64,000 nucleotides of DNA from Chloranthus sessilifolius (taxonomy: Eukaryota > Streptophyta > Magnoliopsida > Chloranthales > Chloranthaceae): the NCBI GenBank assembly GCA_021018995.1, contig CM037585.1, forward strand, positions 69,008,646 through 69,072,645. Reading direction: 5' to 3'. Under the pieces are notes generated by a model. That model saw nothing but the letters and a program-made list of their open reading frames with translations. It was not told the origin of the DNA and did not search any database. The position numbers and the translations under genes were made by a program. Positions 2,184 to 54,830 of the stretch are shown piece by piece (position 1 is the stretch's first letter; the number at the start of each line of letters is the position of its first letter).

Positions 2184-2864
2184 TGGTATATAACTGTACA
2201 TTATGTTTTTATTTCATAGTTTTTGCTTAGTTTCTTTGTTTCTATTTTTATTCATGTTTGTTCTCTTTTCGCATGGTTTAAATAGGTGAAAAGTTATGTC
2301 ACAAAGTAAAAATTGTCTTTTTGCAAAGTTCAAATTACTTTTCGAAAAGAATCTGGAGTTGTAACGAACTGCTCAAAAGCAAGGATTTGCTTTTCGAATA
2401 GTTGTTTCTGAAGCTAGTTTCTTTTCGAAAAGATGTTTCTGAAGCTATTAACTTTTCGAATGGTACTGATGCCATTCGCAGTTGTAAAAAGGTCTATTTT
2501 GGAACTTTTTGAAAACTTAAAAAGGACTTTGTGAAATTAACTCTGAGCATATTTAAACCCTTTCGAAGTAAGGGTTTCATATTCGAAAGCTTTTTGAGAA
2601 CGACCTGTTCCATAGAAACCCTATTTCTCTCTTTCCTTACGTGATTTGAGAATCTAGCCACACTTTTCTTCACCTTTGTTCGATCATTTAAGCTTTCAGA
2701 GAAGGATTTTAGCTTCTGGTCTGGGGGATTTCTGCAAGCAAACAACACGTTCAATCAAAAACCCTAGATCTCGGTATTTCTCTGTGCATTCTCTCTGTTT
2801 ATCATTTGAAAATTTTGATTTTGTGTCAGCATCTATTGTGGGAATTTTCATACATAAATTTAGA
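2184..2864 (+). promoter_or_regulatory. Integrase-ORF2 spacer with TTCGAA motif array
   Basis: No convincing coding sequence. From about 2262 to 2600 there are roughly a dozen copies of CTTTTCGAAAAG and variants (TTTTCGCA, TTTTCGAATAG, TTCGAAAGC), one every 25-35 bases. The same motif fills the upstream part of the LTR of this element at 7386-7642. It may be a promoter or protein-binding array for ORF2; that role is inferred. Confidence 0.6.
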
Positions 2865-5336
2865 ATGGGAAAAGCAGAGAAATCATTGGCTGCCATATTC
2901 CCCAAATCCTCTGCTAAGAAAGTTAGCAAACTTACCCCAAAAGGAAAAACCAAAACTTTAGCCAAAAGAAAACTATCAATGGATAAAGCGGATAGGGTGG
3001 AGAAAGGGAAGAAAGTGAGACATGAGGAACCCATCCCTGCAGCTGCTAGTCCTGAGCCTGAGCTTCCTCCTCTGCCTATACATTTGGTACTGCCAAATCC
3101 ATTCATTGAAGCTCAGAAGCTAATTCCTGAACTGATTGTGGACGAAACTTTTTTCGTCAACAAACCGGATTGTCAGCTATCCTTAAGATACATGAGAGAT
3201 GCCTCACTAAGCAATATCCTTACCCCTCTGCCAGAGAAAATTTACCCGCGAATGGTAAAGTTATGGTACCAAAAGCTGGTAAAAGTCACTGAAAAAGATG
3301 CTGATGTCCCTACCCTGGTTATCTTTATTGATGATTGCGATTTAATTGTCACATTTGAAGACATAGGGAATGCTTTGGGGATACCCTTCCAATTTGATCC
3401 TTCCATTAAAGCGACCTCCTTTAGAGAAATGGTACACATTTAACCCAAGGAATTGTTGGCATGGACTACCATAATGAGGAGAGACCTAGCACCCCAATTT
3501 TTATTGATGGATTCCATTTTAAGGGAAGTTTTATGTCAAAGCACGACCAAGAGAGGAGAACACCAATTCTAGAGGCTCTCTTTCATTTTTCTAAGGGGCA
3601 ATTTTTCAATGCCCCTATGTTAATTTTTGAAGCCATGACTGATATTAGTGCCAAGTTGAAAAAGGAGCAGAAATTAGTTGGCCTCCCATTTGGTAGATTG
3701 ATCACAGCCCTCCTCAGAGCCAAGTTTGACATTGATGACCAGGAGCCATTTGAAGTCATAGCTCCTCACAATTTTGGGAAAAAGGCTTGGACTACAAGCC
3801 AAGCCATGCTGAAAAGACTGAGAGAGGAAGGTGATCCTGCACTGCATTAATGAACCTCCTAGCTCTTTAGAACCGGTTTTGCCAGATCCTGAGGTGACCA
3901 TCTCTTTAGCTGCACCAATTCTTGAAGCAGCTCTGCCAGACCCTGTGGTGACCAGCTCTTTAGCTGCACCCATTTTTGAAGTAACTATCCTTCCCATGGT
4001 GACCAGCTCTTTAGCTGCACCAATTCTTGAGGAAGTTGGCCTTTTACCCTCCTCCCCTAGTCCAGCCCCTGCCACTTCACCTATCCCAGCTGTCCCATCT
4101 CCCATACCCACCATTATCCCAATTGTAGATTCCCCCTCTACACCAACCACTCCAACCATACTCACACCACCAATTTCTCCCACCAATACCCATGTTTTGG
4201 CTGCAGACTTTATTGCCCAATCTCCCTGCACTCCTCTGCTCCAAAGCCCCTCAAATTCACCTGCTCATTCAGCCCACACACCTGAAGTATCCCATACATC
4301 TGAACCTGAGTCTTTCCCTACAGAGGCTTATTCCTCATTAATGGGATCTATTTTTGAAACTGTGGGGCTTGAACCTATCCCTATACCTGATCCTCATCAT
4401 TTCACTCACTTCCCTAATTCTCCCTTTACAGCCATCTCACCCATTGCACCTCCACCATCCACTTCAGTTGTACTAGTCCCTGCTATGCACACCTCTCCCA
4501 CACCTGCATCTATTAACCAAATACTTGCCTACCTCCAATCCATCCAAGCCCAACTACAACTCACAGAAAACCGATCATGACCAATGACCTTCTCAAACCT
4601 TAGCCTCCACATCCCACACAACCACCATTACCCACTGTACCCTCTGTTGATGCCCATGCTCTGAGAAGCCGAACTAGAGGTAGTATTGGTTGATCTGCCC
4701 ACCCCCACCACTACTGCCCATGCTACCCAAACTAAACTTGAAGTACCTCTGGTTGCATCCCCTTCACCACTCCTCACTTTCTCTGAGCAAGCCACTCAGA
4801 CCGACCCTGAAGTCCTCCTTCTAGACACTTCTTCTCCCACTCCCATAGCTAGGATACCTTTGGTCCCCTACCATTCCATTCCCCTTCCCAGATTTGCCAC
4901 CCTCCGAAGAGCCATGGAAGAAAATCCATATATCTGCAGAGATGTTCTAAAGGGGTTAGCTGATTTACAAGCCTACATTAGAACCCCTTATGAAAACCAG
5001 ATTCGGAAATTGGAGTTATTTATGAAATTTGAGAGAGAGAAAATGAAGGACTTGCTGGGGCAAACTTTTTAGATTGTTCGGAGTGAGCAGCACAAGGTGA
5101 CCATGTTGCAAGCACAGCTTGACCAAGAAAAACTGAAGACCACTAGACTTGGAAAGTACATTGGCCTCACCAAAAAGATCAAATCGGAGGAATACACTGA
5201 GCTGCAAAATACAATCCAGGAGAAAGATAAATCAAGTTCAGACTCCAATACTGATTCTAGTTCTGCCTCTGACAGTGACTCCAGTTCTGAGCCCATTGAA
5301 CCAACTTATGATACAGATTTTGACCCCAGTTATTAA
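2865..5336 (+). pseudogene. ORF2 (post-integrase) protein, putative plant transposon protein domain
   Basis: The chosen start is ATG 2865, followed by a lysine-rich N-terminus with nuclear-localisation character. A conserved globular region follows, with YPRMVKLWYQ, a hydrophobic IDD box, IGNALGIPF, ERRTPILEALF and LPFGRLITALL. It resembles the 'putative plant transposon protein' domain (Pfam Transposase_32 type) of Athila ORFs. Next come a Pro/Ser/Thr-rich linker with three ATQT-type repeats, a Lys/Glu-rich helical stretch and a Ser/Asp-rich acidic tail ending in DFDPSY. The reading is broken by a stop at 3441-3443, frameshifts near 3450 and 3835, and stops near 4580 and 5072. I see no signal peptide or membrane segment, so the 'envelope' label often used for Athila ORFs is not supported here. 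Function unknown. Confidence 0.8.
3894..4046 (+). repeat. Three 51-54 bp tandem repeats inside ORF2 linker
   Basis: Units start at GTGACC 3894, 3948 and 3999 and encode the repeated peptide VTSSLAAPI. A2 has a reduced version at 23285-23400, so copy number changes between sisters. Confidence 0.8.
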
Positions 5337-5504
5337 AGCACTTTGTATTTATCTGTGTTATGAGTTTGTAATATAAATTCTGGTTTTTCTTGTGAAATTA
5401 CTGTGCATTTTTGTCTGTCCTCTTGTCATCATGATTTTTTTTATTTTTTTTTCTTGCTTGTGTCTCTTCTTTGCTTTGGACCAGTGTGGACCCTGCTCCC
5501 CTTT

Positions 5505-5518
5505 GGTTTGGGGGTGTG
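5505..5518 (+). other. Internal second polypurine tract
   Basis: GGTTTGGGGGTGTG is nearly the same as the tract before the LTR at 7107-7119 but lies 1.6 kb upstream. Equivalent copies are at 45903-45919 and, reversed, at 62811-62824. Confidence 0.65.
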
Positions 5519-7119: not shown

Positions 7120-7385
7120 TGTTGAGAACTGGAAAATACCAATTTTCACCCCTCAACCTGAGTCTTGATAGACCTTTGAGAGAACTAAATAAGTGTTCTA
7201 AGTGCTTGTGTTTCAGCTAACAATAAAGACAGGCTTAACCATAAAAGCAGCTTAAAAGTGCCAAAGAGATGATAATCCATGTCGATCCAAAGGAAGAAAG
7301 AGAAGGGACAACCTCACTAGCTGTTAAAAGGTCTGAACTGAAGAGGCAAAGACTAGGTCTCAACCCAGAAAAGAAGTATGGAGCA

Positions 7386-7642
7386 ATTCGAACAGAAAAA
7401 TGCACTACAGAGTACTTTTCGCAAAGAGCCTGAACGGTTCGAAAAGAACCAGAACTCTGTGAAAAGAACTGAAAACTCTAGGCTTAACTTTCGAAGAGCA
7501 CCTGAACTCTTCGAAGAGATGATTGACCTTTTCGAAAAGAAGAGAACTCCATTCGAACATAACCAGAACGTTGCGAAAAGAGCTTCAGGAGTTACAACAC
7601 ATTGCGAAAAGTCCCCTAAACTGTGCGAAAAGGTATTCTGGA
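7386..7642 (+). promoter_or_regulatory. TTCGAA / TTGCGAAAAG motif array in U3
   Basis: About 11 copies in 260 bases: ATTCGAAC, TTTTCGCAAAG, GTTCGAAAAG, CTTCGAAGAG, TTTTCGAAAAG, TTGCGAAAAG and similar. The array ends about 350 bp upstream of the TATA box. The A2 LTR has the same array at about 14892-15130. Confidence 0.65.
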
Positions 7643-7989
7643 GATTCCCAGCTTTTGCAAGGGCAATTCAGTAATCTTTTTCATGCGTCCCAATGCATTT
7701 AAAAACCTAGGGACATTCCAGAAGATTCTAAGCATGAAGCGAAGGCATATTCCGCCCCAGGTGAGCACCCTTAAATGAAATAAACTTGGCGGGAACTTCT
7801 AGAAACTCTAACAAACTTTCAAAATGCATAACAGAATTGATGCTTTTGTCGCCTGATTGGCTGAACCAGATCGAGCAATACTGATTGGCCAGAACAGATC
7901 TGGATCCTTGTGCTTGACTACCATTGGTCGATACAGATCTGAGCACTTCTGATTGGTTGATACACATCTAAGCTAGACTTAGAGAAAAC

Positions 7990-7997
7990 TATAAATA
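7990..7997 (+). promoter_or_regulatory. TATA box of A1 LTR
   Basis: TATAAATA in a conserved context (ACTATAAATAGACGAACC). It occurs at the same place in the A2 LTR. Confidence 0.7.
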
Positions 7998-8983
7998 GAC
8001 GAACCATTTACCCAATTTGGGCTTCCAGATTTTGAGTTTCATTCCTATTCCCCCATTACCAAACTAGATAGTTTGTCTGAAATCCCTGTAATAGCCTCAC
8101 TTTTACTTGCAATTGAGAGCTGTGAGATACTTCTGTAATTCAAAAGAGAGTTGTATTCAAGACTACAAATCGAGGAAATTTATTTAAGTGGCATGCTCTG
8201 TAATTGTAATGGTGAATTTGAAAAGGTTGCTGTAAACCGTACATTCTCAATTGGACTCATGTTAAGGGTGCCCTCTGATCTCCTTATTGCATTAGACTCC
8301 TTTAGATTTACTATTTTTCATGCAATTTCCCTTGATTCATTAATCTTGTGAGAATTAGTGTTTGTAACCTAATCTCTCACGGCATTTGTAGTGATGCTTC
8401 CTGTTCTAAATTAAGGCTTTGGAGTTAAGACTATTGAATGGTCTGTGGACAAACCATAGCCATAAGCCTAAATCTAATCCTTGAGTTAGATTTATTTCTC
8501 TTACATCTGTGCTAGTAGCCAGATGAAGATTAGATCATCCCTCAGTTGAGCTGCAGTCTTTCTCATTGTATTTCAAGGACCAAATCAAAGTTAGATATTA
8601 CTTCTCCATTTTTTATAAGTTTACCTCAAAATTCCCCCAACTCGGATCTGAATCATTTAGTTTAACTTTTACTTTTATCATTTAGTTAATGTGACAAATT
8701 CAACCTCCCATCTTATGTGCTTTCTAGATAGGATAAGAGGCCATATCTGGTAGCTCAGATCTGGAGGTTTATCTTGCATTTTAGACAAATTCTCTGTGGA
8801 CGATCTTTTACTCACTTACATTTAAAACTTGCTACAATTGGCCCTGATCTTGCAGGCTAATTCACTTCCCTTTGTGCTGATATTTCTTTACTCTTTTTTT
8901 TGTTCTAGATTCATTATAACTTAGCAGTTGCAAACCTGTTTTCAAAACACAAATAAATCAAGCACACTTAGAACAAATCAACA

Positions 8984-9335
8984 GGAATCAGGCTTACCCG
9001 AAGCAGAAAGAGAAAGATCACGCTTTGATCAGTTGAACTTACTGGACGAAAAGAGACTCCTAGCCTTATGCCATACCCAAGTATACCAGGGGCGAATCGC
9101 ACGTGCCTACAATAAAGGTGTCCGCGATCGAGATCTAAAGGTATGAGACACTGTGCTGAAGAAGATCTTCCCATCCCTCCATGCCGATCCAAGAGGAATG
9201 TTTAACTTGAACTGGGAAGGACCATACGTCATTCAAGAAGTGCTGCCAGGATACGCCATCCGCCTCGCCACCATGGACGGAGATCATCTTCCTGAGCCCA
9301 TCAATGTTGGATACGTTCAACGGTTCTACTCTTAG
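8984..9335 (+). pseudogene. pol: Tat integrase C-terminal fragment
   Basis: The frame runs into Athila A1 on the left, so only the tail remains. It reads LLDEKRLLALCHTQVYQ, ARAYNKGVRDRDLKV, then a stop at 9144-9146 where relatives have Trp, then DPRGMFNLNWEGPYVI and a terminal VGYVQRFYS. The pattern (Arg-rich helix, GPY module, Leu/Met-Asp-Gly turn) matches Tat/Retand-type integrases and differs from the Athila integrases here. Confidence 0.88.
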
Positions 9336-10645: not shown

Positions 10646-11929
10646 TTAACGGCCCAGCTCGCGCTTCAAAGCGCTAATCTCAGCATAAAGATCATCCTCT
10701 CGGACATTCCTCTCAGTTAACCAACGACCATGCAGGCTCTTGAACTTCTTCCAAGAAGAGTCGGCGGCTCCAAAAGCAACACTCAGTGATTCCTTCAAGC
10801 AGAGAACCTCGCTCTCCGTTGTGTCTGCTCTAACCCTCTCGCATGCCAAGAGTTCTTGCAGGACCCTCTTCTAATCCACCAATAGCTCGATACGGGTTCA
10901 GAGCGCCGCCTCTTTCTTTGGCCAGGGGCCTCTAGTATCAATGATCTCTGACAAATCCGGGCCATCAGCGGCAAGCCGCTCAGCCAACAGCCAGGCCTCG
11001 TACTCAGGAGAAGTTCTAACTGAGTCTCTCTGCTCAAAATCACACATCAGTGTCGACTAAAGCGTCTCCCAAAGAGCAGCAATCCGATCTATGTCCCCAG
11101 AGGATCCCCTAGAAAAGATCAAATCACATAAAGGGGGTCTGGCCTCACAAGGCACCTGTTGAGGGCAGCCGAACTGACGCAGCACCTAGAATAGGAAGTA
11201 GAAGGTGCTGCCGGTCAGCCCTACGAAGGTGATGCCCTCATGGTCTCTAGAATGAATCACTGGGAAGGTCCGGTCCAACCAAGGAAGCCTCCATGTTAGC
11301 TCAACATCGACCAACCAAAGTTTCAGAGCCGACATATCACCCTGGGGAAGTAAGTGGCATCTACCCAAAAAACATTGGGCCACCTCGCCTCGAGCAACAT
11401 AAAAGCGAGGCACGGGCCCCAAAACGGCAAAATGCTCACCCAGCCAGACCTAGAGCAACAAGGGGCATCCCCGAAGGCCCTCCACCTTGCCCAAGGCAAA
11501 AGAATCAAGGCATCGGTACAGCTCGGCAAGCACCACGTGCATCATGGACAGGCCCGCCTCCAACTCCATGAAAATATTGCAAACTACCAATGAGAAGCTC
11601 TCTCCCCCGGTGTAGAAGAGGATTTCAGAGATGAGACCAAGTGCTAGAGCTTTCACGTTAAAGACACTCCTAACCGGCAATCTTCGAAGGCTTTCATAGC
11701 CGAAAAGTTCTTTGAGGAATTTCAGCGAACACCTTGTGGGCCCCCCGACGAGGCTCTTCTCGTACTCGGATTTCTTCAAACCGAGAGTAAAGTGGAAAGA
11801 TCTAGAAGAACCTAGCCTAGGCATAACTCTTACAAGGTCCCTATGAAGCTTAAGGCCAGACAAATTGGATAGCTCCTCAAGGGTTGGGGTCAGCTCCCGC
11901 TTCCCAAAATGGAATACATGGAGGTTCAC
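10646..11929 (-). pseudogene. Antisense Tat gene A (DUF7745-like protein with coiled-coil tail)
   Basis: On the minus strand the frame begins at or before 11929 (the reading upstream, WELLHSAAS...WDVNL, continues the domain to about 11990). It contains FHFGKRELTPTLEEL, a long helical middle and LWLVDVELTWRLPWLDRTF. The C-terminus is Leu/Glu/Lys/Arg-rich and likely coiled coil, ending ISALKRELGR at 10646. Stops at about 11450 and 11186 and a frameshift near 10880 break it. The N-terminal pattern resembles the DUF7745 family found in plant retroelement-linked proteins; I am moderately sure of that family. It lies downstream of gene B on the same strand, with palindrome cluster A (12278-12394) about 350 bp upstream. 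Confidence 0.65.
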
Positions 11930-14627: not shown

Positions 14628-16470
14628 TGTTGAGAACTGGAAAATACCATTTTTCACCCCTTAATCTGGGCCTTGATAGACCCTTGACAGAACTAAATAA
14701 GTGTTTTAAGTGTTTGTTTTACAGCTAACAATAAAGGCAGGCTTAACCTTGAAAGTAGCTCAAAAGTGCCAAAAAGATGACATTCCATGTCAATCCAAAG
14801 GAAGAAAGAGAAGAAACAACCTCACTAACTGTTGAAAGGTTCAAATTGAAAAGGCAAAGACTTGGTCTCAACCCAGAAAAGAAGTATGGAGCAATTCGAA
14901 CAGAAAAATGCACTACAGAGTACTTTTCACAAAGAACACAGGCTACTTAAAGAACACGAAACTGCAAAGAACAAAACTCGAGCTTAGCTTTGAGCATCTG
15001 AACTCTTCGAAGAGATGATTTACCTTTTCGAAAAGAAGAAAACTCAATTCGAACAGAACCAGAACCTTGCGAAAAGATCTTCAGGAGTTACAACACCTTG
15101 CGAAAAGCCCCCTAAACTTTGCGAAAAGGTATTCTGGAGGTTCTCAGCTTTTGCAAGGGCAATTCAGTAATCTATTTCACGCATCCCAATGCATTTAAAA
15201 ACCTAGGGACATTCCAGAGGATTCTAAGCATGAAGCGAAGGCATATTCCACCCCACGTGAGCACCCAGAGATGAAATAACTTGGCGGGAACTTCTAGAAA
15301 CTCTAACAAATTTTCAAAATGCATAACAGAATTGATGCCTTTTTCACCTGATTGGCTGAACCAGATCGAGGAATTCTGATTGGCCAGAACAAATCTGGAT
15401 CCTCGTGCTCAACCACCATTGGTCAATACAGATCTGAGCACCTCTGATTGGTTGATGCACATCTGAGCTGGACTTGGGGAAAACTATAAATAGACGAACC
15501 ATTTGCCCAATTTGGGCATCCAGATTTTGAGTTTCATTCCTATTCCCCCATTTCCAAACCAGATAGTTTGTCTGAAATCCCTGTAATAGCTTCACTTTGA
15601 CTTGCAATTGAGAGCTGTGAGACATTTCTGTAATTCAAAAGAGAGTTGTATTCAAGACTACAAATCTGAGAGTTGTTTAAGCTGTGCTCTGTAATTGTAA
15701 TGGTGGATTTGAAAAGGTTGCTGTAAATCGTATATTCTCAATTGGACTCATGTTAAGGGTTCCCTCTGATCTCCTTATTGCATTAGACTCCTTTAGATTT
15801 ACTGTTTTTCATGCAATTTCCCTTGATTCATTAATCCTGTGAGAATTAGTGTTGGTAACCTAATCTCTCACGACATTTGTAGTGATGCTTCTTGTTCTAA
15901 ACTAAGGCTTTGGATTAAAGACTATTGGATGGCTTGTGGCCATTAAAGTGGACAGACCATAGCCATAAGCTTAAACATAATCCTTAAATTAGATTTATTT
16001 CTCTTGATGAAGATTGGATCATCTCTCAGTTGAGCTGCAGTCATTCTCATTAGTTTTCAAGGACCAAATTAAAGTTAGATATTACTTCTCCATTTTTTAT
16101 ATAAGTTTACCTCAAACGTTTCCCCAACTCGGATCTGGATCACTTAGTTTAATTTTTACTTTTATCATTTAGTTAATGTGACAAATTCAACCTCCCATCT
16201 TATGTGCTTTCTAGATAGGATAAGAGGCCAGATTTGGTAGCTCAGATCTGGAGGTTTATCTTGCATTTTAGACAAATTCTCTGTGGACGATCTTTCACTC
16301 ACTTACATTTAAAACTTGCTACAATTGGCACTGATCTTGCAGGCTAATTCACTTCTACTTGTGCTGATATTTTTTTTTTTTTTTTTTATATTCTAGATTC
16401 AGTATAATTTAGTAGTTGCAAACCTGTTTTCAAAACACACATAAATCAAGCACACTAAGAAGAAACAACA
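14628..16470 (+). repeat. 5' LTR of A2
   Basis: TGTTGAGAACTGG to CAACA, 1843 bp, six bases before the primer site. TATA box TATAAATA at 15485-15492. The TTCGAA motif array lies at about 14892-15130. Confidence 0.95.
15485..15492 (+). promoter_or_regulatory. TATA box of A2 5' LTR
   Basis: TATAAATA, matching 7990-7997 in A1 and the reversed TATTTATA at 25761-25768. Confidence 0.7.
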
Positions 16471-16476
16471 AGTTTT

Positions 16477-19037: not shown

Positions 19038-19039
19038 TA

Positions 19040-27016: not shown

Positions 27017-27021
27017 TCTAC
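27017..27021. repeat. Target-site duplication of A2, right copy
   Basis: TCTAC, the partner of 14623-14627. Confidence 0.93.
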
Positions 27022-38972: not shown

Positions 38973-38980
38973 TATATATT
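38973..38980 (+). promoter_or_regulatory. TATA-like box of Athila C LTR
   Basis: TATATATT within GCTATATATTGAGATC. The same sequence lies in the 3' LTR near 48484. Confidence 0.6.
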
Positions 38981-40124: not shown

Positions 40125-40142
40125 TGGCGCCGTTGCCGGGGA
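40125..40142 (+). other. Primer-binding site, perfect tRNA-Asp type
   Basis: TGGCGCCGTTGCCGGGGA equals the complement of the plant tRNA-Asp 3' end. Confidence 0.93.
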
Positions 40143-40428
40143 GGTGTTTGTGAATTTGATAGATCTAGTTTTGTTTTATAAATCTGTAACTGTGTGTTTG
40201 ATTTTACTAACTGCATTTGTGAGTTTTGTTGTTTTTCAGTATTTTTGTTCATTTCACTAGATCTGAGTACAGTGTGAGAGGAGAGCTATGCTGAAGGCTG
40301 CTCTATAGTTTGCATCCCTTCTCCCCTATTTATTTTCAAATTTGTTGATTTTTTTAGATAAGTTAATCAATTGTGTGTTCCTATTTGTTGTATTGAGAAT
40401 TTACTCTGCATTCAGTTGTGAGTGTTGT

Positions 40429-42270: not shown

Positions 42271-42282
42271 TCTAGGACATAC

Positions 42283-42852
42283 TTGTCCAAGAAAGTCTTT
42301 TCAGCAGAGAAGGTAAAACACATTCTGTCCATTGCAACCCCCACCAAACTTCAAGACCCTAGAGTGCCCACTATCCCCTGCATCATTGGGGATTATAAAA
42401 TTGAGAAGGCCCTATTGGATCTAAGAGTCAGTGTAAACTTGCTGCCCTATGCAGTCTATGAAAAATTGGGCCTGAGAGACTTTAAGCCCACACCTGTGGT
42501 TCTGCAACTGGCTGACAGGTTCGAAAGGAAGCCTGTGGGAGCCACTGAGGATGTCCTGGTGGGAGTTGACAAGTTTTTTTACCCTGCTGACTTTGTGGTA
42601 TTAGATATGGAGCCAAGTAAAGGTATTTCCTCCATCCCTGTGATTACGATAGCCCTTCTTGGCCCGCCAATGCCCGATTCAAAGGATCCATCATGGAGGT
42701 CTCCTTTGGCAACATGAAAGTAAAGCTGCATGTGTACAGCACTAGCTCTCAACCCCCTTTTGATGAAACTTGTTTTTCCATTGTAGGGCTAGAGGAGGCT
42801 CTGCATGATAATCCTCAGCAGCTGCTGCAGAACAATGATTGGCCTATAGAGA
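42283..42852 (+). pseudogene. pol: Aspartic protease remnant of Athila C
   Basis: Reads IPCIIGDYKIEKALLDLR where A2 has the DLG active site, so the Gly of the catalytic loop is replaced by Arg. VLQLADR and VLVGVDKFFYPADF are kept. A frameshift near 42640 leads into MEVSFGNMKVKLHVY. By about 42860 the sequence jumps to the end of pol; about 3.5 kb present in A2 are absent. Confidence 0.85.
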
Positions 42853-42971
42853 CAAAATTGCAACCAGGGGTTGAACAATTGCTGAGGAATGGATCCAAGA
42901 AGGATGAAAGTTCAAGGAACATGGGGAGGCCGTTAACCTTCAAGATCCTCCAGATTAGCACCTGCAGTTGA

Positions 42972-43879
42972 GTATGTATCATATGTACCATATTTTACTT
43001 CTGTTTTAGATTTTTTTTTACTTTGCATCTCTAGTAGAATTCTTTTGCAATAAATATGCCATGCTCTCTAGTGGGTCGCCTTTTCAAATTTGCTAGCTGC
43101 TCTAAGGTAATGGGAGCTCATCCACATAAGAATCCAATCTTAGGGCCGCACAGCAACAGAGCCTGATAAGTGCTGAAGCTAAGGGTGCTCAGAAAGGCAG
43201 CTCTATCTGGGTTTTGGAGCCTTCGATAGGCCTAATCTACATTTCGTTAGGTTTCATGGTGATTTTGATAGGATATCTAATGGTATTTTTTTGATAGGAA
43301 CTGGATGTTTTGATAGGTAAAACCAACTGCTCGGCAGGTTAAATAAGGGCAAACAAAGATTTCGATAGGAGCTGAGTACATATCGGCCACCTATCGAAAA
43401 AATGCTATCTCTGCCGTTTAAACCTATCGATAGGATGGTCACACCTATCAAAATCCTTAAAAATCATCCCTTTTGAAAGCTTTGATGTCTAAGCTTTCGA
43501 TAGGTCGCATCAACCTATCGAAACCATTCCATTCATCCTATCGAAATCGCATTTTCACCTATATATACCTGCTGATAGGTCATTTGTGCTTCATTCCTTA
43601 CCCTCTGAAAAAACCCTAGCTCCCTTCCTCATTTTTCACCTCCCTCTTTCTCTACTAAACTCGCACGGAATCATCTACTATTTAGTGTGCCATCTTGTCA
43701 ATACATTCAGCTTGCGTAGAGGAGCATTTTGCCCCTGATTTTAGAGAAATTGGAGCGATGCATCGCTAGCTTTGTGAAACCCTAGGTACCTGGAGGTGAG
43801 TTGCCTTCCTACCATCACTCTGTTGTCTTTTTAAGTTTTCCCATTTTAAGTTGGTGAGAAATTACTCCCTGAGATTACA
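42972..43879 (+). promoter_or_regulatory. Athila C spacer before ORF2 with TTCGATAGG array
   Basis: No gene. About 14 motif copies between 43210 and 43560 (TTCGATAGGCC, TTTGATAGGA, CCTATCGATAGGAT, CCTATCGAAATC). These are the same motifs as in the LTR of this element. Confidence 0.65.
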
Positions 43880-45737
43880 ATGGATGAGCCTGAGGAAACG
43901 CTAGCCAGCATACACCGGAAATCAACTGCATCCACCCCTAAACCCCCCAAGAAAGCGCTACCTACTACCAAACCACCTATAAAGAGGAAGCTAGCTGGGG
44001 GGACACCCAAAAAGAGCCCTAAAGCTAAGAAAGCTAAGGCTGTTAAAATTCAGGAACCGGTGGTAGAAACACCCTTAGAGAGAGCTACCCCTGACAGGCC
44101 CACTGCTGTAGAGCTTTCGGCTATACTAACCACCCCCAATAAATTTGTTGACAAGCTAAACCTTGTCCCTGAGATTGAATTTGATCTGGTATATTTTGCC
44201 AACATTGGAGAGTGCCAGGAAACACTAAGCTATTTAAAGAAAGAAGGCTTGTTGCCCCTACTATCGCCATTGAAGGAATCAGTGTATCCCAGGCTGGTGA
44301 AGTTATGGTACCAAAATCTGAAGAAGGTGGCACAGGGGACTGATGATATATTAGAAATTTCGATTGATGATTGGCAACTAACTATCGATCACAGAGACAT
44401 AGGAATGGCTTTGGGGGTCCCATACCAATTTGACTCCAATCGCGCTGAGGGAGCACCTGTTGGAGATACATTTAAGGATATGGCCAAGCAGCTAACCAAT
44501 GGGATTGTGGGTTCTGGAGAATCCCTAATGAGAAGAGACCTCCATCCTAGCCTTAGATTCATGGATACCATCTTAAGGAAAAATGTCTATGTTACAGGAC
44601 ATTTGCAGGAGAGAAGGTCCCCATTAGTGGATGCTTTATTTTATTGTTCCAAGGGGCAATTCGTGAATGCACCTAAGTTGATCTTTGAAACTATGGTGGA
44701 CATAAATGACAAGGTGCTAAAAAGAAAGGCTTTTGCTAAGGGAGGAGGCCTACCCTTCAGCAGACTCATCACTTGTCTGCTCAAAGCTGGAAAGTATAGG
44801 ATCAAGGAGGCTGAGCCAGTGGAGAAAATGGCTCACAAGGTTTTTGGAAAGAGGGAATGGTCTATAAGTTTAACCCAGATTCAAAAGACTAAGCCGGCTG
44901 TAGCAGAGAAGGAGGTGCCCACTACCTCAGCAGCAAATCATGCTGCTGACATTCCCCCATCCACCATTCCTCCTACATCACCCACTTTTTCATCCACCTT
45001 ACCTACACCATCACCTACACCTGGGATCCTGGAACTCCCCACCTTCTCCGAGCCTATCCCCACCATGTCTTCCCCACCCTCCCTCCAACCCCTTCCTGAT
45101 TTTCACCCTCCACCACTTCCTATACATACACAGGGTTTGGACCAGTTCACTTCTACTGGTTTCTCTATCCTCATTTCTTTAATTGTGGAGGATGTTGCTC
45201 ATGAGTACACCCCACTTCCTGACTCCCCCCACACCACTCCTCCTCATTTTACCCCATGTCCCCCCTCTACAACTATTCCTTCATGACCCCACCCATGGAT
45301 GTTCCCTCCCGCCACCGCCTCTCCCCAAGACTTCGGCCTGCAACCTCCTCCCTCCTCCCGCCTGTGTCCCTCCACCTGACCAACCTATCCCTCCCAAATC
45401 CAAAAGGTCTGTCTCCAAAAGAATCGCCACTGCCAAGAGATCTGCTTCTGTTGCTGCCTCTATCAAAAAAGGAAAACGACCTGCTACCTCATCCAAAGCC
45501 GCTAAGCACACCAGGTCATCCGCTCAATCTGACCCCCATGGGACCCTACTCTCTAGGGATGAAAGAAGGAAGGCTGCTGCAGCTCTAGGATTGGATCCCT
45601 TGGAACTTTTTCCTTCTGATTCGGATTCGATTCTCGCTCGCTGATCCTAAGGTAAAATAAATTACCACGAGGAGGCACCCGCAACACATCAGCAGAAATC
45701 TAAATCCAAGGGCAAGGCCCCTGTATCTAAGGGATAG
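43880..45737 (+). pseudogene. ORF2 of Athila C, nearly open
   Basis: ATG 43880 opens 468 codons to 45284-45286, the longest coding frame in the window. A Lys/Pro-rich N-terminus (KRKLAGGTPKKSPKAKKAK) suggests nuclear import. The domain follows: YPRLVKLWYQNLKK, IDDWQLTIDHRDIGMALGVP, GSGESLMRRDLHPSLRFMDT, ERRSPLVDALFYCSKGQFV and LPFSRLITCLLKAGKY. Then a Pro/Ser/Thr-rich linker. After one frameshift near 45250 the reading continues (45183-45644 frame) with a basic KRSVSKRIATAKRSASVAA stretch and a Ser/Asp end; a second small shift leads to TAG 45735-45737. No membrane segment is seen. Function unknown; DNA binding is possible. Confidence 0.8.
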
Positions 45738-45902
45738 TTGGCACCAAGTTGTATCTGAATGTGACCATTTGTTCCTTCAGCTTCTTTTTCATTTGTCTCT
45801 TGTATATACTTGACATTTTGTTGTGTTATTCTATAGCTGTCTTCTTACACTGTCTCTCCCTTGATTGCATTTTCTCGAAACAGTGAGGACACTGTTTAGT
45901 TT

Positions 45903-45919
45903 AGGTTTGGGGGGTGTGG
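45903..45919 (+). other. Internal second polypurine tract of Athila C
   Basis: AGGTTTGGGGGGTGTGG, followed by CATGTATGCC. It matches the tract at 47488-47500 beside the LTR. Confidence 0.65.
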
Positions 45920-47487
45920 CATGTATGCCAACAAACTAGTTAATTTTAGTGCAGCCAAGTTAAAAAGGAATAATCAAAAAGAGAATGAATTCACCTCATA
46001 ATTGTTGATTAAGAAAATTTTAAAAACCATTTGCAACTGAAGTAAGCTGAAGTTTTAACATTTTTCATAAAGAAAATGTCAAGAATTTTTGCAGGAAGTT
46101 TTTGATGTGTGATAAACCAGCAACGAGAAGAGACTGTGAAGATACTCTCCAGAAATTGGATGGAAGACCATACCCAGTGAGAATTGGGCCTAAAAAACTT
46201 CTTTGAAGAGTGTCTTGGCAATTCATTCTGCTTTGAGAACTGACTGGACCTAATCTGGATCACTAGAAGTTAGGCAAATCTGAGTTGAAACAACTTGACA
46301 GCACTCAGAACATGGAAGACATGAAGTAAGGCCATCTCTTGGACAGTTTGGGCATTAAATTCCCCACCATTGAACTGCCCTTGATGCACACCACTTGAGC
46401 CTCAAAAGCCTCAATTTTCTTTGATGAAAACCAGAAATTCTAAACCCAAAACCTCTTGACCTATTTCATTTCACCCTCAATCTGAGAAATCAGGAAGAGG
46501 AAGGAGGAGAAAGGTTAGAGGAGCAAGATCCCAAATCAGGTTGAAAGAAAGAGAAATGCAGTTGGTGGTATTTGTGGTATTACATTTAAAAAAAAAAAAA
46601 AAAGAGAGAGAGAGAGAGAGAGAGCAGAAGAATGAGAAAGAGAAGTCATTTCATTGGAAAAACTGAAAGGAAGAGAAGAAGCTGGCCACTTTGGCTCTGA
46701 AAATTCAAAAAAGTAGATGGAATTGTGCTGAATTAAAGGTGAAGTCATGAATCACCTCCTTACCTTTACTGATTTCTCAATTTTGAAATCTGTTATCTCT
46801 TTTGTTCCTCCACAAACCTCATCCCTAAGCCACATTCCAACCTAATAAAAAGACCTTACTGATCTAAAAGTGGATTGAGCTTTCATGTGGAGAAGAGAAT
46901 TTGCTTCACCTATGGTGTAAAGAGCTAGAAAAGTCAGAAATTTAAGCAATGCCTATGCTCCTGCTTGCAGTCCTATTTGAGGGTTGTAACTGCTCTTGAG
47001 CTGAGTGATATGATTTACCCCTCTTCTCTGTACTAATGAGTGAATAGCCCTGGTGAGACTTGGGTCTGAAATACAGTTGATGGGGGAAGTATCTAAGCAG
47101 GATCCTCAAATTGATGGTGAGTTATGCATAAAAGTTCAGAAGAAATGCCTGGACACAAACTGAGTGATGATGGAGAGATTTCAGCAAACTTTCATATTTC
47201 CAAATGGGTGTTTTTTCTGTTGAATTTCCTTTAATGAAGGGGCATGATGTGAATTTATTTGATGTGCTTAAACTCTGCTTTAACAGGTTGCACTATTATT
47301 AACTAAGTGTATAGGAGAAGTTTGTGGGTTCCTTCACTAAAAACCCTCAGGAGACTTCACTCCTCCACTAGGGATCATCAAGGGGTTTAAAAGGCTTGGT
47401 ACATGTGTTAAATGCATCCATGCTCCCTACGAAAGTGGCATTTTATTTTTCTTTGAATTCTCCTTTGCTCAGGGACTAGCAAAGCTT

Positions 47488-47500
47488 AGGTTTGGGGGTG
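47488..47500 (+). other. Polypurine tract of Athila C
   Basis: AGGTTTGGGGGTG directly before TGTTAAGTGG. Confidence 0.88.
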
Positions 47501-49619
47501 TGTTAAGTGGTGAAAAATGCCACTTTGTACCATTTAACTTGACCTTTTATGGACCTGTGAGCACACTAATAAGCCTCTGTTGAGTGCATTTTGTAGATAG
47601 CAGAGAAAGCTAGTAATAATGCAGAAAACCACTTAAGAATGCCCACAAAGAAGTCATCTATCAGCACCATGCAGACCCAGCAATAGAACAAGGAGAAAGA
47701 AGTGAAGATAGGTCCAAAACATCCTATCAAGAGGATGTCTGAAGACTTCGATAGGAGCCGAGGATTAAAAGGAAAGAATTTGTGCAGTTGAAGAAGGATT
47801 CGATAGGATCTGAAGGCAGAAGAATGATGAATTCGTATGGATTGAAGAGTTCGATAGGATTTCAGAATCTATCGAGCAAAGAAAGGAAAGAAGAAACTAT
47901 CCTATCGAAAACTTGCCTGAAGTGTCAAAGGAACCTAGCGAAAGGATCTGAGAACCTAGCGAAAGGACTAAAATGCTCGATTCCAACCTGTCGAAGGCTC
48001 CCTGAACCTATCGAAGGATGCTTAAGCCTTTCGATAGGAATGAGAGCCAACCTTTCAGGATGACGGTACACAGAGCTGAACCTGTCGAAAAGGACCCCTG
48101 GACCTATCGAACTACTCAGCCAACCTATCGAATACTCCAGATATTGGGTTGAGGAACTTGAAGCTTCAAAGAGAAAACTCATCCTATCGGTACCTATCGA
48201 AGAGACCAGGGAACCTATCGAAAGGAACTACAAGCTTACTTTTAACCTGTCGGAAGCTTCCCCAACCTGTCGAAATCGTGGGTTGAACTTCTCAGAAACT
48301 ATGCTATGCACACGCTGAGACTTGGTAACCTGTTGCATGTAAATCGAGGCACTTTGGTGACCGGCGCGATGTTCTAGAAGATGCCCTAGAAAGCCCTAAC
48401 CAACCCACGTGCTTTAACAGAACTCTAACAAACTCTGGCAACCTTCTAGAAGGGATTTTTGGCGGGAAAAATAGAGGAGAAAGCTATATATTGAGATCCG
48501 CAATTTCCATTGGGGAGGATCGAATTTCTGGACAAATTCCTAGAAATCAGAGCTTGCAGCGAGATTCCATTTCCCTCCTTTAGCCCAACCATGGTTGGCT
48601 AATTCCCTAGGAGCAGCAAGGGGTGAGTTAGATCAGTAATTGGGTAAGGTTAAGAGTGTTCTTTGGGGTTAATTCTTTTCGAGCATTCCATTGTAAGAGT
48701 GACCTTGTTTGCAATGTAAATGTTGTCTTCAATGTTTTAATTAGTTCTAAAGCTCTTTTGATTCCTTTTGGTGCTCAATCGGATTTGTGTAGAGGAGTTG
48801 CTTGATCAGCTCACCCACTTAACTAGTAGACCTCTTGGATATCATCTGAATTCCCTGGATCTGATATCCTTGTAATTTCCTGCATCTGTGACCTGGAAAT
48901 TGCAGCATCTGTAGTGGTTTTAATTGTTCTAATTGAGGCTCTGGCTTTGTAGGAGATCTCTAGGATGGTCTGTGACCATTAAAGTGGACAGATCATAAAC
49001 TTAAGGTAAATATGAGCTCAGGCCCCAATTGGATTCATCTGTTGTAATCCATAGATTTGATAAAGCCTATAGGATGGTCTATGACCATTAAAGTGGACAG
49101 ATTATAGCCTTAAGGCCAGGTGGATCCTGTGATTTGAAGTGGAATTTATACCCTGCAGCTGTGCTTGTGGACAGTGCCTGTGGCCAGCCGAGGGACTTGT
49201 GTGCTTTTGAACCCCTGTAATATGCTTAGCTCAACCTGATTGCAGTGAAGACAATCTCCCAGTTGTTCTTCTCCATTTTCTGAGTTTTTAAACCATCCAT
49301 CTACAAGATCTGAGGCTCCAGATTCAATCTAAAATAATTTGCATTTTAACTGTAGTTTAGTTTAAGTGATAACCCTATCCAAACCTCTCCCCTGTCTTTT
49401 AACTAAAGTAGAGATAGCTAGGGTGCCAGATCTCTTACAGATCTGGAGATTTACTCAATTCCAAACCACCTCTCTGTGGACTTTCCCTTACTTACTTTTA
49501 AAACTTGCTACAAAGGACCCTGTATCTTACAGGTTTAGGATATTTTTAGATGTGCTGAATCCATCTCTGTTTTCTCCTGATTTTTATACCATAAATCAGC
49601 ACACTGAAAATCCACAACA
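47501..49619 (+). repeat. 3' LTR of Athila C
   Basis: 2119 bp, TGTTAAGTGGTG to CAACA, followed by TGGAC at 49620-49624. Confidence 0.95.
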
Positions 49620-49624: not shown

Positions 49625-50346
49625 AGTAGACAAAAAAATGTTGAGCATAGGTACAATTCTGAAGTTTTCGAGAGGTTTTAAGTACATTTGGGAGGTCCTG
49701 AGCAGTGTTCGAGAGGTTCTAACATTGAATAAGTACTTCTCGAGAGGATCAGGTATCTTCTTGAGTTCATTGTTCTGAGTGCCAAGTGATCACGACAGGT
49801 TCCCATTTCCTAAGTAATCCAGTCGAGGAATATTTTATGAAGCCCACTGAACTGCTAGAGGAGTTTTACACCTTCAACAGGTTGTAGTTTGTGTCACTTC
49901 GCCGCTCGAGAAACCACTCGAAGAGTTCCCCAACCCGTCGAGATCATATTTTTTAGGTTTTAAAACCTTTCGTGGGGTTTATTTTCTCATTTTCTCTCTT
50001 CTGTGCGACACCTGGTCATTCTCCCCCGCGAGAGTTCTCTATTTATTTCCTAGCCAACTCACTTGTTGAACCTTCATACACCTATTACTTCTGCTGGTTG
50101 GATCAGCTTGGTAAAGTCAACATTTTGCACCACGTTTCTTCCAGTTTGATTTTCTAAGCTCAATTTGGAGTGAAACCCTAGCTGTAGGGTAAGTACTCCA
50201 TCATTCTCTGTCCCAATTGTGGTTAAGTGCTTATTTATTCTGAATTTAGTTCATTACACTGTGGATTATCATTTGGGTACGAGTTTTTAAACTACTGAGA
50301 AAGTGATCTGTTGTGTTGGAAGATATTTTGGATTTTCTATTTATAA
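49625..50346 (+). promoter_or_regulatory. Athila B spacer before ORF2 with TCGAGAGG array
   Basis: Continues 37991. About ten motif copies in 49660-49955 (TTCGAGAGGTT, CTCGAGAGGATC, CTCGAAGAG, GTCGAGATC). No gene. Confidence 0.6.
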
Positions 50347-52017
50347 ATGGTTGAACCTGATAAATTTGATGATTCCCTCACCCATTTACTTCAGCCTTCC
50401 CCAAAATCAGTAAGAAAATCTAGTAGGATAGCTTCAGCCCAGCTTCAAACTAATCCACCATCTCCTGTAGCCCAACCTGTCAAAAGGAAGCTGAGTGATT
50501 CATTTGAGCATGCTGAGAAATCTAAAATTGTTGCCCAAAAATCTAAAAAATCCAAGAAAACCACAAAGTCTAAGAAAGGCAAGAAAATTGTTGAGGAGGC
50601 ACCTGCTGTACCTGAGCCTGTGCCTAAATTTGACCCCCTCACAACACCCAATGAATTTGTAGATGAGCTGCAGCTGATACCTAAGATAGTTTTCGATGTA
50701 CCTTACTTCACTAAGGTAGAGTGGGGGAGTGAGACCTTAGCTTACTTGGCTAAAGCTTCCTTGGAACCCCTCTTGAGCCCATTGGATGAGAGAGTGTATC
50801 CCAGACTGGTGAAGGTTTGGTATAAGAACCTCAGGGTGCTCAGGCTAGTGGGGCAACAGAACCTATTTTTGTGATATTAATTGATGATTGGGAGATTGTG
50901 GTGGACACTAGGGACATAGCAATTGTTTTGGGAATCCCATTTCAGTATGATTCTTCCTCTAGTTTAGGAGCTCCCATTAGTGTTGCATTTCAAGATATGG
51001 CTAAACATTTGACTAAGGGAATTGCTTGATCTGGAGAGTCACTCATGAGGAGAGAATTTGATGCCAGCATGTTACTTATGGATAGCATTCTGAGAAAAAA
51101 TGTTTTATGACTGGCCATCAGCAAGAAAGAAGGTCCCCAATTGTAGATGCCTTATATTCTTTCTCTAAGGGGCATTACATCAATGCTACAGATTTGATTT
51201 TTAAGGGAATGAGGGACATTCATGGGAAAGTGAAGAAGAGGCAGTTGCTGTTTGGTTTGCCTTATGGTAGGCTCATTACAGCCTTATTGAAGAAGGGGAA
51301 GTATGTATGGAAGGCAGAAGAACCAATTGAAGAATTGCCACCTATGGTTTTTGAAAAGAAATTATGGTCAACAAGTATGACTTTGATAGGGAAAAGGACA
51401 AAGGGGATTGAGGGTACATCAGTTGCCATCCCTACTTCAGCTATCACTACTGCTGCCTCAACAGTAGCCATATCAGTTGTTATACCTTTTTCTGCCACAT
51501 CACCACCTTTGTCAGCAGCTTCTAATATGTTCAGTGCCACACATCATCCCTTCACCCATCATTCCTTCTGCCATCCCTGCTCCTATGCCTGTCATGTCCA
51601 CTACACCCTCCACAATCACCACCATCATCCTTGTGTCAGCTCCATCTTCTTCCACTTTCCCATTTACCTTACCTACTTCCACCACAAAAGGAACATACCA
51701 AAAGAGAACCCCTCAACCTAAATCACCACCCATTACATCTGGCCCATCAATTTCTCTACCTCAACCAAGTCCTTCCATTCTAACTCCTGAACCCACTAAC
51801 ATTGACCAACCTATCACCACTGAGCCAGTTACCTCTCCTACCCATTCCCTATCACCTATTCATACCCAGGGCCTGAAGGAGCTCACCTCTGAGGGATACT
51901 CAGCCCTGATTGACTCCATTGTGGAGAAAGTTGGGCATGAGTACATACCCTTCCCAGACTCTCCACAGCCTGACCATTTCCACCATGCTGTTGAGGATAT
52001 TTCAGGTACGGATTTAT
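50347..52017 (+). pseudogene. ORF2 of Athila B, 3' end cut by Athila D
   Basis: ATG 50347 opens 175 codons: a Lys-rich N-terminus (KKSKKTTKSKKGKKIVEE), then FVDELQLIPKI and YPRLVKVWYKNLR. A frameshift near 50835 and a stop near 51028 follow. The domain continues from 51107 with ERRSPIVDALYSFSKGHYI and LPYGRLITALLKKGKY, and after another shift near 51540 a Pro/Thr-rich linker runs to HTQGLKELTSEGYSALIDSI. It ends where the inverted LTR of Athila D begins. Confidence 0.8.
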
Positions 52018-52964
52018 TGTGTGTGATAAAAATAATTTTAAAACAAAGTAAAACAGAGGATGGAATCAGCACACTAAAATTATCCTAGACCTGCAAGATA
52101 CATGGTCCATTTGTAGCAAGTTTTAATAAGTAAGAGTTTGTCCCAAAGGGAGTAGTGATCTAAAACCTAAGAGGTGTATACTAGACCTCCAGATCTGCTA
52201 CAGATCTGGCAATTCTAGCCTAAATCTAAGAAAAAAAAGAGAGCTTTTTGGGTGTCACTAGATCTAATTTTACAAAACTGAAGTATAAAACTAAGTCTAA
52301 AAGATTGAGGAAGATGAATGGTAAATTAAATAAAAAATGGTGAGAAATAGGCAGCTAGGGATTGGTTTTTACTGAAAATCAATTTATTCAAAGGCAAAGT
52401 ATAGAATTGATTTGCTACAATCATTCATCTGGCTACAAGCTCAGATGCAAGGTATAAAAAGCTAATCTCAACTAAAGAATTGGATCAATCCTAAGGCTAT
52501 GATCAGTCCACTCGAATAGTCACAAATCATCCCAGAGATTGTTCTAATTCAAGGATCTTGATTGGAACAGGTAAGCTATTACAGAAGCTGTGGGTGCCAG
52601 GCTACAAGCTCAAGCATCCACAGGAATCTCTAATCAAGGGAAATCAAATACAAAAAAGTGAAAATTAGATCAGAATCACCTTTAAATATCACAATTACTA
52701 TAATTATACAACTTACAGCCTATTGTGCTCAGATATGCAATCTGTGCAACATCGAATCCATTTACAAAGTCTTTGAAACTCTCAATTTATAATTATAAAC
52801 CAGATCTGGACTGCTTATCTAGATCTAATATAACAGGCTGGATTAGAGAGAGAATGGGGAAGAGAAAAAGGAAAAATAAAAGCTAAACTAAAACTAAATG
52901 AGCTAAGGAGAACCAAAGTTATTCTATGGATTCCTTGCTGAGAAATTACAACACCAAGGGGTTT

Positions 52965-52972
52965 TATTTATA
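52965..52972 (-). promoter_or_regulatory. TATA box of Athila D LTR
   Basis: TATAAATA on the minus strand. Confidence 0.65.
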
Positions 52973-53479
52973 CACAACCAGTGATCCAAGTTCTTTGGAT
53001 TGCAGGCAATCAGAGGAGAGGATTTGATGCTTTAATCTCTATTTTAGCATTTCAACCAATAAGAGAGAAGAGAGGGAGATCCAATTCTGTTTATGCAGCT
53101 GGAGTAGTTTGCATTCCCGCCAAATATTTGAAAATCAGTTCATGCCCATGTGCAGACCTCTCTTTTGCTTTGGAGTTCCCAAATCTGCCCCTGCCGTCCA
53201 TTGTTATTTCCAACTGTAGCCCAATGTAACTTCTGCTACTATTTTTTAACAAAATAGCCCCAAATGGAACCCGATTTGCTAATCTGCTAGGGTCTTGAAG
53301 GTGTTTAATCAAATGGCTGCACACCTCGACTAGTTTATTAGTTGAAACTCAATGGAGTTTGGTGGGCCCGAGCTAGATCAGCTTTGAAAGAGTGTAAACT
53401 GCAGCAGAGGAATATTGGCTTGAAAGCTTAGATTGTAGTTTTATATGACTACAGCTTCAGGTACATTTTGTGAGGATGG

Positions 53480-54830
53480 AAGGTTGATCTTGAGAGGTTG
53501 GAGCAGCTCTAGGAAAGGTGTCGTTAGGTTGTGGGTGAAACTCGACAGGATGGAGGGGATTATTGCTGAAGGTCGAGAGGATGGCTGAGTAGGGAGCTAG
53601 AGTTCGAGTAGTTGGTTGACATGCAGCTTATGCCGTTCGATAGGATTGATGGTAGGATGGGCTGGAATCTTGAGAGGTTCTGAAGCCAAGTTTGTAGGAT
53701 TAGACAGGTTGCTGGAGTGCAGATTGAGTGCTCGATAGGATAGATGTTTGGGGATTTAACTAGTCGACAGGTTGATGGAAAATGGCTTTGAAACTTTGCT
53801 GGTTGAGAGGTTGGCTGAACGTTACCAGCTGAATCTCGAGAGGATGTGGGTGGTTCTGAAGGTGTGGTCGATAAGTTGAAGGGCCCTTGAGCTGAACTCT
53901 TCGATAGCATTAAAGCTTGGAGGCTTCAACAACTAGTCGTGAGGTAGGCTGCATGGGGTTCAAAGCTCAACAGGATCTAAAAGTGTGCATTTGATCTGCT
54001 CGAGATGTTGGCCAGAGAAAGCTGTAAATGCTGGTCGAGAGGATGTTGAATAGAGAGCTTGCTGTTCTTGAGAGGATTGAAAGTGAACTTGGAGAGCCAA
54101 ATGGTCGACAGGTTTGCTGGTTGGGATAAGGGCATCTGCTCGAGATGTTGGCTGGAGAGAGCTGCAAAGCTGTTGACAAGTTCTAAGGCAGCTGCATGCT
54201 GAAATTGATAGGATCTGAGAATAGAGGGCTGTCAATTCATCTACCAATCGATAGGTAGGCTGAGTGCATTCGATAGGATGCTGCAACTGTGGCTTGATGG
54301 TGCACTCGATAGATTTGGATTATTGGAGTGCTCGAGTATTGGCTGAAGGTGTTCTTCCCGTTTGACTGGTTGAATCTCAAGGCTCAGAGGCTGCTACTGT
54401 TATTTCCATTTGGCAAGTTGCATGCCCTTCTAATTCGAGAGTTTAGTGAAGTGTGTTGGGCTCCTTTTGACAAGTTGCAGAAGCTATAGCTTGAACTACT
54501 CTACAAGAGGACTGAAAGGGTATCCACTCGAGAGCTTAATGGACTGTTAGTGCAACTCGACAGGCAGCTGCTGATGCTGAGGCCAAGTGCACTGCTCCAT
54601 TCGATAGGATGCTGAATGCATTGAGGTTTTCGAGAGGTGCTCGAACAGGTGCTTCTTGCATTCGATGGAATTAAATGCAGACTTGCATGGGTGCAACTCG
54701 AGAGGTCTGATGGTGCAATGCATGGATTGCCCGATAGGTACTCCTCTTGCTGAAATCGCCAAGATGAAATGCATTTGATTTTGGGAGCTTGAGTCTTTAA
54801 TAGGTGCTGAGACATAAAGCTCTAAAGATT
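53480..54830 (-). promoter_or_regulatory. TCGANAGG motif array in U3 of Athila D
   Basis: About 35 copies by eye in 1.35 kb, one every ~40 bases: on the + strand CTCGACAGGATGG, GTCGAGAGGATG, TTCGATAGGATT, TCGACAGGTTG, CTCGAGAGG and similar. Nearly all point the same way. The array accounts for most of the extra U3 length. Confidence 0.72.

Follow-up and report, generated by a model that had tools for sequence, protein, structure and literature searches.

Nested elements at the locus

This work concerns a 64,000-nucleotide stretch of the Chloranthus sessilifolius genome (C2:69008646-69072645, in a genome of 2.17 Gb; hereafter the window) and the arrays of short DNA words carried by its retrotransposons. 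Self-comparison, Pfam matches and element termini reveal nested Athila-type Ty3/gypsy elements in the window. The name Athila comes from a preliminary description of this DNA and from features such as the primer-binding site. The elements comprise pairs of long terminal repeats (LTRs), target-site duplications (TSDs), gag, RNase H and integrase (INT), and the order of RNase H before integrase with gag upstream (Pfam) is the gypsy arrangement. An extra open reading frame, ORF2, lies between pol and the 3′ LTR in six families, of which family C is without an integrase match. The arrays occupy two non-coding places, the U3 part of the LTR and the spacer between integrase and ORF2. This family-specific two-place array system is real and, for at least the CCTATCGA version, genome-wide.

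A1 and A2 are related copies, 6–11% apart by self-comparison. The older element B has been split by insertions of C and of D, the latter on the minus strand; the B integrase match stops near 37760 and C sits between it and the B spacer array. C spans 37992–49619 and is flanked by the TSD TGGAC. D extends from 51989 to ~67711, past the window end, with the TSD CATGC and LTRs of ~3.2 and 3.5 kb. Matches to gag, integrase and ORF2 are all absent from the D interior in a search that included neighbouring sequence, and D is a non-autonomous copy. The features are as follows.

2262–2600, plus strand: A1 spacer array of the CTTTTCGA type, in the INT–ORF2 interval (word enrichment, 8-mer search)
2865–3823, plus strand: A1 ORF2 pieces, broken frame, KRKL in the N-terminus
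7120–8983, plus strand: A1 3′ LTR, TATA near 7990 (self-comparison, termini)
7386–7642, plus strand: A1 U3 array (word enrichment, 8-mer search)
14628–16470, plus strand: A2 5′ LTR followed by the primer-binding site; U3 array at 14892–15130
22250–22575, plus strand: A2 spacer array (word enrichment, 8-mer search)
22820–23320, plus strand: A2 ORF2 core piece
26050–26400, minus strand: decayed U3 array inside an inverted A-type LTR (24893–26622), absent from the preliminary description
37992–40118, plus strand: C 5′ LTR, TSD TGGAC; U3 array at 38236–38765; TATA near 38973
43210–43560, plus strand: C spacer array of the CCTATCGA type; a TATATATA box begins near 43560
43880–45286, plus strand: C ORF2, open 468-aa frame, K/R-rich N-terminus with KRKL, sub-threshold PF20167 match
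47501–49619, plus strand: C 3′ LTR; U3 array at 47745–48275; TSD TGGAC
49660–49955, plus strand: B spacer array of CTCGA words (enrichment, 8-mer search)
50359–51980, plus strand: B ORF2, broken, with D cutting in near its end
51989–55238, minus strand: D 3′ LTR
53480–54830, minus strand: D U3 array, mixed CCTNTCGA, every scored site in one orientation

Each family carries its own word

The preliminary description had listed nine of these arrays as dense in one motif per family, and all nine are present where it placed them. Compared with 500 dinucleotide shuffles per array, every one is enriched, and in 9/9 the P value of the family word is the lowest that the test allows, 0.002; the shuffles rule out chance or CpG content alone as the source. 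The counts are far from expectation: TCGATAGG occurs 10 times in the C 5′ U3 (0.02 expected) and 8 times in the C spacer (0.01), TCGANAGG 14 times in the D array (0.11) and TCGAGAGG 3 times in the B spacer (0.02). The tenth, decayed array has zero exact TTCGAAAAG, four CGAAAAG (0.18 expected) and, for TCGA alone, P = 0.064. The window holds 89 CYTNTCGA words, 71 inside the ten arrays and 18 outside, and a scan of 364 segments puts the array segments near the top, alongside simple and tandem repeats.

Word discovery without a preset motif, run on U3 and spacer separately, led in both to one family word or to near variants of it. The top 8-mer ACCTATCG is common to both C U3s (log10 P –21.9 and –25.1) and the C spacer (–17.0), and CTTTTCGA ranks within the first four 8-mers in the A1/A2 spacers and A1/A2 U3s, not in the inverted LTR. 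The same search returned CTNTTCGA-type words in A U3s and A spacers (top log10 P –7.3 to –11.0), CTCGA words in the B spacer (–6.7) and CCTATCGA/CCTCTCGA in the D array (–25.2, –22.4). The families differ at defined positions of the word. Position 2 is T in 36/39 A sites and C in 44/46 C sites; position 4 is T in 39/39 A sites, A in 33/46 C sites and C in 4/5 B sites, and is divided among A, C and G (7, 5 and 5) in 17 D sites. Adjacent A sites often overlap to give a 12-bp palindrome of the form CTTTTCGMAAAG. Orientation is mixed in the A, B and C arrays and one-way in D only. Cross-scoring with position weight matrices (PWMs) sets A apart from the other families; the C-U3 PWM also scores 12–26 sites/kb in 4/5 A arrays.

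For the words of most families C-Y-T-N-K-C-G-M is a better description than the bare TCGA core that had been ascribed to the motif, and two families outside the window, F and G, use CGCG-type words. Family F does not fit the longer consensus either (2 sites against 0.8 expected in the spacer, 3 against 1.2 in U3).

U3 and spacer share the word in six families

The match between U3 and spacer had previously been noted in two families. Flanking DNA (250 kb) added families E, F and G with both places visible and an inferred U3 for B, taken from the first plus-strand polypurine tract (PPT) beyond D, outside the window. Across all six families, U3 and spacer share the family version while versions differ between families. 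The words are CCTNTCGA in E, CGCGCGAT in F and CCTCGCGA in G. The cases of F and G tell most, since the core of their word is a different one and the word still appears twice within one element: in F, CGCGCGAT ranks first in U3 and second in the spacer, and CCTCGCGA tops both word lists of G. The inferred B U3 has CTCGA-type words close to those of the B spacer; for B and E, U3 and spacer are led by similar words and not by one identical word. When U3 words are sought in spacers, the families' own pairing has P 0.0014, the floor over all 720 pairings, and the own spacer ranks best in 5/6. When spacer words are sought in U3s over the 720 pairings, P is 0.0028, with the own U3 best in 3, 2 and 3 of 6 using 1, 3 and 6 words.

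Alignment of U3 with spacer within one element never scored higher than the top one among 20 block-shuffled controls in 6/6 families (G equals it); the two places are not alignable and the match is therefore one of words. The window spacers of A, B and C likewise have no significant mutual alignment, only 14–18-base matches at E 0.008 or weaker. The six-family comparison leaves aside ORF2 relatives in loci L017 and L021, whose upstream top words are weak or CpG-free, and locus L022, with a poor PPT and weak words. Separately, CCTNTCGA forms a strong array in L021 at 8300–9300, with a log10 P of –18.5, which is not assignable to an element.

The system extends through the genome

A 19-mer joining the PPT to the LTR start has 13,586 exact genome matches and its control 0. 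The genome contains 27,227 pairs of CCTATCGA with a spacing of 4–34 bases; the reversed control, a word without CpG, yields 116. Proximity was assessed for 38 PPTs and 90 pair places among the matches listed, on C1 up to ~78.4 Mb. Eleven of these 38 PPTs have a pair no further than 1.5 kb into the LTR, where random anchors gave 0.15 on average and at most 3, and among these listed matches a further pair lies 1.5–8 kb upstream in 7/11 such PPTs against 2/27 others (Fisher 0.0007). One of the seven upstream cases is probably a 5′ LTR, as its sequence is that of the LTR again; without it P is 0.002–0.0035. Most other upstream pairs have no strong likeness to the C LTR or C spacer, and their assignment to the spacer goes by distance.

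Six PPTs, each fifteenth listed place on C1, were also sampled. A recognisable word version is present in 5/6: P1 and P5 are A-type (in P1 the word ranks second), P2 is C-type, P4 is F-type (weak, –5.1), P3 has TCGCGAAG/CCTCGCGA and P6 is unclear. The P1 and P5 spacers bear the matching A-type word; the other four fetched stretches missed or partly covered the spacer.

Arrays retain CpG, and A-type words diverge slowly

The observed/expected (o/e) CpG ratio is 0.49–1.41 in nine window arrays and 0.01–0.29 in the other element parts measured, with the inserted tandem repeats of D (0.77) as the exception. The share of array CpGs that lie inside words ranges from 4/11 (B) up to 17/22 (C 3′ U3). 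That arrays keep CpG when the bodies of related copies are by now poor in it may reflect selection acting on the words or protection from methylation.

Divergence was compared in five A-type copies, with word columns defined in one copy and compared among the others. At non-CpG columns it is 0.116 in words and 0.187 in the rest of the array for the spacer, and 0.140 and 0.219 for U3; at CpG columns it is 0.243 and 0.433 (spacer) and 0.160 and 0.351 (U3), where the cells are not independent. In the C LTR pair, CpG differences fall on 3/34 word positions and 14/44 elsewhere (Fisher 0.025, for positions that are not independent). Between the A1 and A2 spacers no such difference is present (5/20 in words, 4/16 elsewhere).

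Element bodies, from gag to the 3′ untranslated region, are nearly emptied of CpG in every family, even though A1 and A2 have diverged by no more than 6–11%, and the intervals between elements have an o/e of ~0.6.

ORF2 as the candidate binder

ORF2 is the fastest-diverging protein compared: between-family identity is 25–50% for ORF2 (six families), 57–68% for GAG and 71–77% for INT (five families). Between A1 and A2 the ratio of nonsynonymous to synonymous substitution (dN/dS) is 0.26 in the ORF2 core, which is thus under constraint despite the fast divergence, 0.71 in its C-terminal part and 0.22 in INT. Word similarity follows ORF2 identity (r 0.62, P 0.028; with five families 0.73, P 0.017), and not that of INT (r –0.08) or GAG (r 0.19). 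The A, B and C proteins have in common a lysine-rich N-terminus with KRKL, which resembles a nuclear localization signal (NLS). Judged by hydropathy alone, C ORF2 has no strongly hydrophobic stretch, its best 19-aa value being 1.18. Searched with C ORF2, a protein database gave 0/7997 scored candidates at E ≤ 0.001, and the PDB sequence search yielded nothing, with a best E of 0.22. One report describes a methylation drop in the LTR regions of one sunflower Athila clade and raises in general terms that LTR-retrotransposon proteins, Athila being named, might shape their own methylation (PMC12844716). On present sequence data ORF2 is the best candidate for the array-binding factor, at about an even chance.

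Locus L017 contains at 540–1580 an ORF2 relative with 24–33% identity to the six families, preceded by an integrase only 23–28% like theirs, which suggests that ORF2 also occurs in another Gypsy lineage.

A model for the arrays and its alternatives

What might the arrays do? We propose that they are clusters of predicted sites for a sequence-specific factor, set before two promoters per element, with ORF2 as the putative factor; we place this slightly above an even chance. The U3 array would serve the LTR promoter, from which gag-pol is expressed, and the spacer array an internal promoter for ORF2. The ORF2 protein would enter the nucleus, bind the word of its own family and either raise transcription or remove silencing at both promoters, a positive feedback. 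Protein and word would change together, as each ORF2 would recognise its own family's word, while non-autonomous copies such as D would keep the U3 array alone and borrow the factor. Promoter signs are consistent with part of this scheme. A TATA lies 3′ of the main array in 6/6 U3s. The earlier suggestion that the spacer array may drive ORF2 agrees with the C and G spacers, where the array is directly followed by a canonical TATA; in A and B the boxes at its end are weaker and TTTAAA-like. By raw count, a telobox-like word stands between array and ORF2 in 6/6 spacers and also occurs in 3/6 U3s. The fuller version, in which ORF2 is a nuclear activator or anti-silencer, ORF2 and word switched specificity together (TCGA- versus CGCG-type), and families became deaf to one another and open to exploitation by non-autonomous copies, is put forward tentatively, as somewhat short of an even chance.

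Several observations weigh against this proposal. The E and F spacers have no canonical TATA after the array. The words of C and E overlap, and C U3 words score higher in the E spacer than in that of C; the imperfect own-best ranks arise because these two families are close in word. A fixed-spacing A-type pattern, TTCGAAAAGNNTTCGA, is not enriched genome-wide (27 against 83 for the reversed control), and only 2/8 of its fetched loci (L008, L010) lie inside Athila A-type LTR arrays. Without family A the correlation between words and ORF2 falls to r 0.37 (P 0.15), and linkage could make the two co-vary, because spacer, ORF2 and 3′ LTR adjoin. ORF2 matches no recognised DNA-binding domain in the searches made, PF20167 being its only match and sub-threshold wherever found, and its AlphaFold model is unusable (pLDDT 38).

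The main rival, which we consider unlikely, is that the arrays bind host transcription factors and that each family came by drift to depend on another paralogue within a single group of such factors. These are possibly methylation-sensitive, since the words have a central CpG, and both promoters would have moved in step, being needed in the same cells. The clustering of the words, the CpG they retain, the place of the TATA and the slower divergence of words all fit this explanation without ORF2, and no array in the window is longer than that of D, in which no ORF2 match was found. From a conserved host factor one would however expect a single stable word, whereas the versions differ by family and shift in both places together, and the words track the divergence of ORF2, not of INT.

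It is improbable that the arrays are a neutral by-product, namely CpG-rich minisatellites or the result of gene conversion spreading between U3 and spacer. The A arrays do have some local tandem duplication, with periods of 20 and 31, and individual sites turn over between A copies. Yet a tandem-repeat finder is silent in the B, C and D arrays, the word columns evolve more slowly than their flanks in A copies, and U3 and spacer go on carrying words even where the spacers of different families are unalignable. Homologous transfer between U3 and spacer is ruled out by the missing alignment above block-shuffled controls within one element.

Action at the RNA or single-strand level, with opposed copies forming hairpins that seed small RNAs or package or stabilise the transcript, is very improbable. 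The C spacer does fold beyond dinucleotide shuffles (z –9.4 and –8.2), as do the A spacers (–4.7, –4.8) and the C U3s (–3.3 to –7.4), but B (–1.0) and the A2 U3 (–0.4) hardly do. Versions with randomly flipped words (25 each) fold alike in 5/6 non-D arrays (z –1.0 to 0.3), the C spacer standing at –1.9, and the one-way D array folds worse than random orientation (+2.6, +3.6). The re-orientation test rules out the hairpin as a conserved property; hairpins seem to arise incidentally when words point both ways, because re-oriented words fold about equally and D worse. Binding of the arrays by Gag or integrase instead of ORF2, in the service of packaging or targeting, would suit the fact that both regions belong to the element, but has very little probability, as word similarity is unrelated to INT or GAG identity and integrase is conserved (71–77%) across the switch from TCGA- to CGCG-type.

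Further features of the window

Within the 3′ untranslated region of D, tandem repeats of ~1.1–1.25 kb occupy 55789–61799; they are ~90% alike, with a GC content of 0.55 and the CpG o/e of 0.77 given above, and are a possible satellite seed. At 24893–27016 a plus-strand A-type LTR meets, at its 3′ end, an inverted A-type LTR that truncates A2 after the ORF2 region. Rfam snoR71 matches lie antisense in the gag of A2 (17141–17246, minus strand) and B (34443–34548, minus strand), and this Rfam family may include retroelement sequence. Fragments of a plant mobile domain (PF10536) occur in the CpG-richer intervals between elements at 11450–11929 (minus strand; below the Pfam cut-off) and 27018–27344 (minus strand). 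A tRNA scan returned nothing.

Viral contigs searched by integrase and by primer-binding site gave nothing. The sole outside relatives (L001, L002) are near-identical plant-like contigs in assemblies of Solirubrobacter and Geminicoccus (CPCC strains), which are probably plant contamination in bacterial assemblies. They have an Athila-like integrase and one CYTNTCGA word, no array, and no ORF2 match at E ≤ 1. They are consistent with our proposal and in effect represent one locus.

Comparison with known systems

Sireviruses reportedly carry conserved short motifs in their non-coding regions; they are a Ty1/copia lineage, unlike Athila, and we know of no U3–spacer pairing in them, nor of a matching word array in the LTR of maize Grande. 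Grande does offer, in gene23, an LTR-retrotransposon accessory gene with its own promoter, whose protein is nuclear according to a title cited in PMC7264820; gene23 is antisense, unlike ORF2. A literature search, with preprints and most subscription papers outside its coverage, returned no account of such Athila arrays. The Arabidopsis short interrupted direct repeats (SIRC), some of which lie in ATHILA2 and ATHILA6A according to PMC10342631, might overlap such arrays.

Published accounts of the Athila env-like or additional ORF describe the same layout of gag-pol, spacer and extra ORF, and their accessible portions do not mention word arrays (PMC7264820, PMC2410132, PMC11728184). The sunflower Athila 3′aORF(+) protein is reported to have the NLS RGGKRKL, of the KRKL type also present in ORF2 here, and is predicted to be nuclear (PMC11728184). 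The role of the env-like ORF in plant LTR retrotransposons is termed controversial or unknown in PMC7264820 and PMC11728184. With an array in cis that matches a protein diverging alongside it, this ORF would have a directly testable role, the array circuit could help to explain the abundance of the elements here, and the natural protein–word pairs would be material on the evolution of DNA-binding specificity.

The closest parallel is VANDAL/VANC, as described in Hosaka 2017 (PMC5735166) and Sasaki 2023 (PMC10398659). VANDAL elements, like the Athila elements here, carry dense, short, family-specific words in non-coding parts; their families differ by word, and the accessory protein VANC changed target specificity. 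An unrelated element, AT9TSD1, shares VANDAL words, as the non-autonomous D may share those of other families here. The differences are equally plain. VANDALs are Mutator-like DNA transposons that encode VANC and the carrier here is an LTR retrotransposon, whose ORF2 matched PF20167 only, below the cut-off. VANDAL words (YAGTATTAY, AGTTGTCC, AGTTGTAC) have no CpG, unlike the Athila words with their central one. The Athila arrays stand before two promoters, and, unlike the one-orientation tandem repeats of VANDAL, are of mixed orientation except in D and contain few tandem repeats. Our working hypothesis is that the array system may work like VANDAL/VANC, as a circuit of self-recognition in an LTR retrotransposon, a likeness of operation with no claim of membership, and that arrays and ORF2 together would offer the LTR-retrotransposon counterpart of VANC.

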